Assembly: GCA_017524035.1 (NCBI GenBank)
Contig: JAFWUY010000098.1
Coordinates: forward strand, 1-36,978
Reading direction: 5' to 3'
DNA length: 36,978 nucleotides
Origin: Lachnospiraceae bacterium
Lineage (GTDB): Bacteria; Bacillota; Clostridia; Lachnospirales; Lachnospiraceae
Positions 3,359 to 5,436 of this stretch are shown here, piece by piece. Every line of letters starts with the position of its first letter. The first letter of the stretch is position 1. The notes under the pieces are model-generated. The model was not told the DNA's origin, searched no databases, and saw only the letters and a list, made by a program, of their open reading frames with translations. Both the position numbers and the translations under genes were made by a program.

Positions 3359-5356
3359 TCATCCTATTTCCGCACCGGCAGGCATATCCTTGTCTATGCC
3401 GAGAAGAGAAAGCTCGCCCTCTGCATTCTCCGCACAAAGGAGCATTCCTTCGCTTGTAAGTCCCGCGATCTGGCGGGGTGCAAGGTTGGTGAGAACAACA
3501 ACCTTCTTTCCGACCATCTCTTCAGCCGAATAACCCGACTTGATACCGGAAAGGATCTGTCTCGTCTTGCTTCCGATCTTAACCTGTGAGCAGAGGAGCT
3601 TCTTGGACTTCGGAACCTCTTCGCAGGAGATGATCTGTCCGACCTGAAGCTGGAGCTTTGCAAAATCGTCATACGTGATCTCAGCCTTGGGCTCAAGATC
3701 TATGCCGTCATCTGCGGCAGCTTCCCTGTTCTCTTCGGGGGTGATGCCGTTCTCCCTTTCGTACTCCGCTCTCTGTGCCGCGCGGATCTCCTCTACCTTC
3801 TTCATTATATCTTCAAGGTTAAGGCGTGCAAAGAGAGTCTCGGGATCTGCGGTAACCTTCTTTCCCGATTCGAAAAGACCGAATTTATCGAGATCTTCGT
3901 AATCTCTGAGGTCATTCTCGCCGATCTGTGCAAGGATGGCCTTTGCGGTCTCGGGCATATATGAATACAGGAGATTTGCTCCCACAGCGATGGACTCGGT
4001 AAGGTTGTACATAACCTCCGCGAGTCTGTCCTTACCGGCTTCGTCCTTGGCAAGAGTCCAGGGCTCGGTCTCATCGATATATTTATTGGAACGCTTGAAG
4101 ATCGCAAATACTTCGTCGATGGCATCGGCAACCCTGAGGTCATCCATCTTCGCTGCTACCTTATCCCTGGCGGCTGTAACGACTGCCTTAAGATCGGCAT
4201 CGACATCTGCCTCTGCGCCGGTCTTTGTTACAACGCCGTCAAAGTACTTGTTGGTCATGGAGATCGTTCTCTTTACGAGATTTCCGAGGATGTTCGCAAG
4301 ATCGGAATTGTATCTCTCGGTCATGAGCTCCCATGTGATGGTTCCGTCATTTTCATAAGGCATCTCATGAAGCACATAGTAACGTACCGCATCGACACCG
4401 TAGAGGGAGATGAGATCGTCCGCATAGATCACGTTTCCTCTTGACTTACTCATCTTCTCACCGCCCTGAAGAAGCCAGGGATGTCCGAATACCTTCTTGG
4501 GAAGGGGCTCTTCAAGGGACATAAGGAAAATGGGCCAGTAGATCGTATGGAAACGGACGATGTCCTTTCCTATAAGATGAAGATCTGCGGGCCAGAACTT
4601 CTAGTACAGATCGGAGCTGTTGCCGTCCGCATCGTATCCGATACCGGTGATGTAGTTGCTGAGCGCATCAAGCCATACATACACCACATGCTTCTCATCA
4701 AATGTAACGGGGATGCCCCATTTAAAGGAGGTCCTGGATACGCACAGATCCTGAAGTCCGGGCTTGAGGAAATTGTTCACCATCTCGTTCTTGCGGGATA
4801 CGGGCTGGATGAACTCGGGATGCTCGTCATAATACTTCATGAGCCTGTCGGCATATTTGCTCATCTTGAAGAAGTATGCCTCTTCCTTGGCGGGCTTTAC
4901 CTCACGTCCGCAGTCGGGACACTTGCCGTCGACAAGCTGGCTCTCGGTCCAGAATGACTCACAGGGAGTGCAGTAAAGTCCCTCGTAAGCTCCCTTGTAG
5001 ATATCGCCCTTGTCGTACATCTTCTTAAAGATCTTCTGGATCTGGACTTCATGATCCGCATCGGTGGTGCGGATGAATTTGTCGTAAGAAACGTTAAGAC
5101 TGTCGCAGATGCCCCTGATGATGCCGGCTATCCGGTCAACGAATTCCTTGGGGGATATACCCTCAGCCCCGGCCTTTTCCTCTACCTTCTGACCGTGCTC
5201 ATCGGTTCCTGTCTGGAAAAAGACTTCGAAACCCTGCTGTCTCTTATGTCTGGCGATCGCATCCGCCATTACTATTTCATAAGAATTTCCTATATGGGGT
5301 TTGCCTGATGTGTAGGCTATTGCCGTTGTAATGTAATAAGGTCCTTTATTCTGCAT
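3359..5356 (-). CDS. metG: Methionine--tRNA ligase (MetG), reading frame interrupted by an in-frame TAG codon
   Basis: Methionyl-tRNA synthetase charges tRNA-Met and is normally essential. Counting from the ATG at 5356 (AGGAAGG, 7-bp spacing; a GTG three codons earlier is less likely), the frame would give 665 residues. Visible are the HIGH-like signature HIGN (21-24), the zinc cysteines C129, C132, C146 and C149, the KMSKS loop (301-305), and a C-terminal tRNA-binding (EMAP/Arc1-like) domain over roughly the last 105 residues. A TAG at 4601-4603 replaces codon 252, between the two catalytic signatures. Sequence on both sides stays in one frame and both match MetG: GNSSDLY before, KFWPADLHLIGKDIVRF after. 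The next downstream ATG (4522) has no ribosome site. It may be a sequencing error, a true nonsense mutation with another copy elsewhere, or suppression. Confidence 0.93.
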
Positions 5357-5436
5357 ACCTATCACCTTCCTTTTCGGCGTCGCATAACGAACGTCTGTCT
5401 TTTCGAATATAATAGACTAATCTACCACAAATGGCT

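Follow-up and report, generated by a model that had tools for sequence, protein, structure and literature searches.

In pyrrolysine decoding (PylS/PylT), TAG codons stand in frame within conserved genes, usually those of the methylamine methyltransferases, and in genetic code 15, which is used by some phages, TAG is read as Gln inside coding frames. Methionyl-tRNA synthetase (MetRS), the product of metG, is normally essential, and some Gram-positive bacteria carry two forms of it (MetRS1 plus MetRS2). A single substitution to a stop codon within an otherwise intact, conserved frame is the usual picture of a nonsense change in assembled genomes and young pseudogenes. PMC8629427 states that the bacterial code changes known before that paper's own screen all reassign UGA, and the literature consulted, PMC8165550 and PMC8629427 included, gave no report of a metG amber codon in bacteria of the kind described here.

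The window, the whole stretch of 36,978 nucleotides analyzed here, belongs to the genome assembly (G000) of an uncultured, gut-type Lachnospiraceae bacterium, of 2.16 Mb on 153 contigs that is 76.8% complete; its nearest named records are uncultured Lachnospiraceae, the top one from yak rumen. On the minus strand, a single metG frame runs from ATG at 5356 to TGA at 3359-3361 and encodes a type-1, PRK12267-like MetRS. Its sole interruption is a TAG at 4601-4603, codon 252 when counted from this ATG and residue 255 when counted from GTG at 5365, and this TAG is real in the assembled sequence. With X placed at the stop, the translation matched the Pfam families tRNA-synt_1g, Anticodon_3, and tRNA_bind, and the best tRNA-synt_1g stretch (residues 153-367) spanned the stop. 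The part before the stop (4604-5356) holds a HIGH-like signature at 5285-5296, and the part after it (3362-4600) holds the KMSKS signature at 4442-4456 and the C-terminal tRNA-binding domain; both signatures were placed by hand on the translation. The next in-frame ATG 3' of the stop is located at 4520-4522, and no Shine-Dalgarno-like stretch was found ahead of it by eye. An earlier note, made from the letters alone, had described a metG frame open on both sides of the TAG, a stop lying between the HIGH-like and KMSKS signatures, and an ATG at 4522 without a ribosome site, and these points were borne out. The first 7.8 kb of the window aligned in one piece with two relatives (89.6% with G017 and 87.0% with G001) and is thus not a join of unrelated pieces. 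The intact metG of G017 scored 867.7 bits against NF008900, and no Rfam regulatory RNA was found at metG within the window.

We read the TAG as a stop codon and not as a recoded sense codon, namely as a nonsense change in a presumably metagenome-assembled consensus (an error or a non-functional strain allele), and assign this reading a probability of about 0.5. The data speak for an ordinary nonsense change, carried by an assembled genome, and not for a new genetic code. A single-base change would have converted a Lys codon to TAG in the consensus, either through a base or strain-mixing error or because the population holds a non-functional allele, and the living cells of that population would keep a working, intact metG. 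Support for this reading comes from the single stop in an intact, constrained frame that is conserved in relatives, from stops of other types elsewhere in the assembly, and from searches that returned no decoding machinery.

Against this reading stands recurrence. metG was compared in 59 genomes, 31 of which (G000 included) belong to the genus, and one in-frame TAG each was also found in G030 (L007) and G019 (L026), at other Lys codons. The interruption therefore affects 3 of the 28 genus genomes whose metG covers residues 250-295; the three left out were G006 and G008, with no metG assembled, and G016, with only the end of the gene. When codon-aligned, the three stops fall within 36 residues, at 255 in G000, at 291 in G030, and at the equivalent of 256 in G019 (252 in its own count). 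In each of the three genomes, the two sites broken in the others are sense codons; the three TAG events were thus independent. Alignment with close relatives, the route to the ancestral residue proposed in the earlier note, gave Lys (AAG or AAA) at residue 255 in all 23 other aligned genus genomes. Residue 256 is usually Lys (Gln in G007 and G025), and residue 291 is Lys in the close group and Gln in G019, G010, and G003. The nearest relatives of each broken metG have Lys AAG at its site. Given TAG, the chance that all three would arise at AAG is 0.008 to 0.031, depending on transition bias, and the chance of three stops within 36 residues is about 0.009, both tests having been chosen after the data were seen.

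Once flagged rows had been checked, no true interior stop was left in PolC of the genus (matches in 29 of 31 genomes, some partial) or in LeuS (matches in 26 of 31), a result that likewise counts against the preferred reading. Candidates discarded along the way were a TGA in metG of G009 and the LeuS stops flagged in G009, G006, G026, and G008, all of which precede the start, and a PolC-like row of G003 that runs beyond the end of a 735-aa paralogue. Among 80 named records, three of which are probably the same as G009, G023, and G026, metG had no interior stop, the one flagged stop lying before the start. A search of 397 genomes of the family gave a match in 381, and among the approximately 155 matches listed, only that of G000 contained a stop. 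Outside the genus, one TGA was flagged by genome search in MetG of G042. What is striking in these data, and worth a read check, is that a single gene was hit repeatedly within a single genus.

Interior stops in other genes were scanned by codon usage, with 65% sensitivity on long frames, and were told apart from gene junctions by eye (G000 contributed 24 rows, G030 2, G019 and G027 16 each, and other genus genomes 3). The 565 kb scanned in G000 gave three additional interior stops that were judged real, all in Pfam-supported frames: a TGA in a RimK-like ATP-grasp gene (L249:7211), a TGA in a small membrane protein gene (L265:12801), and a TAA in a lacI-type gene (L438:7409), at which the intact, 96%-identical G027 copy has Tyr. 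Three rows in the same 565 kb were TAG, two of them gene junctions by eye and the other metG, which makes metG the only TAG among the four interior stops judged real; there was no set of many genes with an in-frame TAG at one kind of residue. These further stops of other types show that the assembly carries ordinary nonsense changes. At the same time, TAG accounted for 13 of 153 gene-end-like stops in the 380 kb of G000 that were sampled first (the metG TAG counted), so it is rare yet used as a stop, as the earlier note had supposed for the window. In 385 kb of G019, one further interior TAG was found in an extracellular solute-binding protein gene (L226:19192); no relative was found that tells the residue at this position, which could be a fourth Lys site. 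Scanning of 161 kb of G030 gave no further interior stop, and G027, which is nearly complete, had none that was judged real (410 kb scanned). At the rate suggested by the four stops found outside metG, it would be unusual, though not astonishing, for 27 metG genes to take two further hits, an estimate of our own made from rows sorted by eye.

An earlier all-against-all comparison of DNA from the genus (158,885 aligned codons, 8 genomes) had supported the three metG TAGs only. On visual inspection, its 12 other rows, 11 with one supporting protein and one with three, were all taken for antisense frames or for sequence ahead of a start. The view that metG was the sole gene with an interior stop was overturned for G000 by more DNA and a more sensitive scan, which gave the three stops above.

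Codon comparison indicated that selection on metG is not relaxed after the stop. Between G000 and G017, 22 synonymous and 4 nonsynonymous codons were counted before the stop (4 of 26 changed codons) and 50 synonymous and 6 nonsynonymous codons after it (6 of 56), and the corresponding nonsynonymous shares between G030 and G017 were 4 of 30 and 9 of 69. Relaxation after the G019 stop was considered because nonsynonymous changes made up 0.48 and 0.44 of the changed codons after it vs 0.27 and 0.28 before; the intact control pair G010-G003 has the same tilt (0.13 to 0.23), and the G019 excess is thus no sign of decay. Across 558 metG columns where nine close relatives agree, G000 has no private change other than the stop, and the same holds for G030; in G000, LeuS has 4 private changes (731 columns) and PolC 4 (1188 columns), none of them radical. 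Together with the constraint after the stop, the lack of other private changes in metG indicates that the gene was functional until recently or is still so in the population. Random error is expected to give far more missense than nonsense changes, so a stop standing as the only private change in both G000 and G030 counts against the error form of the preferred reading. The G019 bin contains two full-length LeuS genes (G019:C186 and G019:C191, 82% and 76% identical to that of G000) and may therefore be mixed, which fits strain mixing.

The recurrence in metG is best explained by a close rival, which we hold to be less probable, in which the TAG would mark a true nonsense allele of the resident type-1 gene and an accessory MetRS, missed in assembly or binning, would supply the function. 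A second enzyme would have been acquired and the old metG freed, and the three species would be at an early stage of its loss. This explanation owes its strength to the fact that the genus carries such genes: second MetRS genes were found in 3 of 31 genomes (G026, G016, and G009). The gene of G026 (L406:12012-14007) is PRK00133-like, has a T-box leader, and is placed just after lysS, where G027 and G011 carry other, unrelated genes. G016 has a PRK00133-like MetRS related to that of G026, and the second MetRS of G009 is of the PRK12267 type (type-1). Plasmid records contain 387 relatives of the G026 enzyme, all less than 60% identical to it, and 288 of them have at least 80% coverage.

The form of metG also varies within the genus. 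Short forms in G011, G015, and G018 are 70-73% identical to P0001, with LeuS at 92-95%; in G011 and G018, the distance between these two figures makes metG look replaced. The metG genes of G011 (L034), G018 (L030), and G022 (L031) encode 551-553 aa without the C-terminal tRNA-binding domain, have similar neighbor genes, and are 70-73% identical to that of the window. On the other side, the assembled parts of G000, G019, and G030 (77-83% complete) contain no second MetRS. The search for a second metG that the earlier note had advised found none in the 2.16 Mb of G000 at 76.8% completeness, and a search of G000 with the other MetRS type of the genus returned only metG itself and LeuS. Moreover, G026 and G009, in which metG could be checked over this region, possess a second enzyme and still have an intact metG, and free decay would not be expected to produce a Lys-to-TAG change in all three cases and a frameshift in none.

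Reading of the TAG as Lys by an unassembled suppressor tRNA, for example a phage- or plasmid-borne one, with MetG made at full length, is unlikely. It would agree with the location of all three TAGs at Lys codons of the nearest relatives and with the constraint on metG after the stop. CUA tRNAs with a Lys-like core do exist on phages: 12 IMG/VR contigs match one Lys-like CUA tRNA pattern, and each of the 12 has a CUA tRNA by ARAGORN. The IMG/VR phage contigs L416, L417, and L424 have two adjacent CUA-anticodon tRNAs, next to which L416 and L417 carry a third tRNA-like gene, and their longest frames lengthen with TAA as sense and not with TAG. Lys-inserting suppression fits the three Lys sites and nothing else. 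In the genus, prfA (RF1) was above the family cut-off in 28 of 31 genomes, including G000, G019, and G030, in which it has no internal stop (RF1 was compared for presence and for stops). One TAA was flagged in the prfA match of G022. PylS (TIGR02367) was above the cut-off in 0 of 31 genomes, with weak matches in 24, a kind of hit that LysS of G026 also produces.

Typing of every tRNA match in G000 (searched at 76.8% completeness), G019, and G030 gave no tRNA with a CUA anticodon, nor did two patterns reveal one in the 31 genus genomes, including G011 and G027 at 98-99% completeness. Of the 31 genomes, 27 had matches to the class-I CUA pattern, and nearly all rows were one string, which ARAGORN placed in tRNA-Arg(UCU) in another register at 6 of 10 tested loci; the remaining 4 loci, from odd rows, had no CUA tRNA by ARAGORN, and two rows had no locus. 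The long-variable-arm CUA pattern matched in 5 of 31 genomes, and none of the matches was a tRNA by ARAGORN. In G000, ARAGORN also reported tRNA-Pro(AGG) twice and tRNA-Leu(AAG) (L057, L061, and L063), so A34 anticodons beyond Arg may be used there. With RF1 intact, no PylS above the cut-off, no CUA tRNA found, and TAG still ending genes, the TAG of G000 is most simply a stop. Genome-wide recoding of TAG was rejected because of the intact RF1, the outcome of the tRNA and PylS searches, and the mixed types of interior stops. Error, nonsense with a second metG, and suppression, the alternatives put forward in the earlier note, were the right ones; the recoding that it left conceivable is not supported, the searches of these genomes having given neither a CUA tRNA nor a PylS above the cut-off.

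Low-level read-through or a two-piece enzyme, in which some ribosomes pass the TAG or restart after it and make enough MetRS for slow growth, is very improbable: the downstream frame is intact and conserved and split class I synthetases can reassemble, but no Shine-Dalgarno-like site was seen by eye ahead of the next starts, no common codon follows the three stops (AAG, GTA, and TAC), and nothing specific speaks for it. Less probable still is that a mobile element of the genus supplies a Lys-inserting amber suppressor and that metG repeatedly took up TAG at Lys codons, so that the cell would depend on the element (addiction through translation) or the level of MetRS would be tied to suppression.

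The observation stands, and the recoding idea does not. If the preferred reading holds in its error form, the case is a warning that recoding should not be proposed from a single stop in an essential gene of a metagenome-assembled genome until the other interior stops of that assembly have been compared. A real recurrence would point to MetRS turnover in the genus, in which an accessory enzyme takes the place of the resident one, and a new kind of bacterial decoding would follow only if the TAG were read as Lys.

Compared with the described systems, the locus resembles pyrrolysine decoding in its in-frame TAG at Lys positions of a conserved gene, but PylS exceeds the cut-off in 0 of 31 genomes, the searches for a CUA tRNA gave none, and metG is not a methylamine methyltransferase. 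As in genetic code 15, the TAG stands inside a coding frame; unlike there, the gene is a bacterial housekeeping gene, the relatives have Lys and not Gln, RF1 is intact, and the searches gave no suppressor tRNA. Bacteria with two MetRS enzymes are matched by the second MetRS in 3 of 31 genus genomes, whereas the three genomes with a metG TAG have none assembled. Closest are the nonsense changes of assembled genomes and young pseudogenes, with one substitution to a stop in an intact, conserved frame and other types of stop in the same assembly, although the gene hit here is normally essential and the same gene was hit in three species of one genus.
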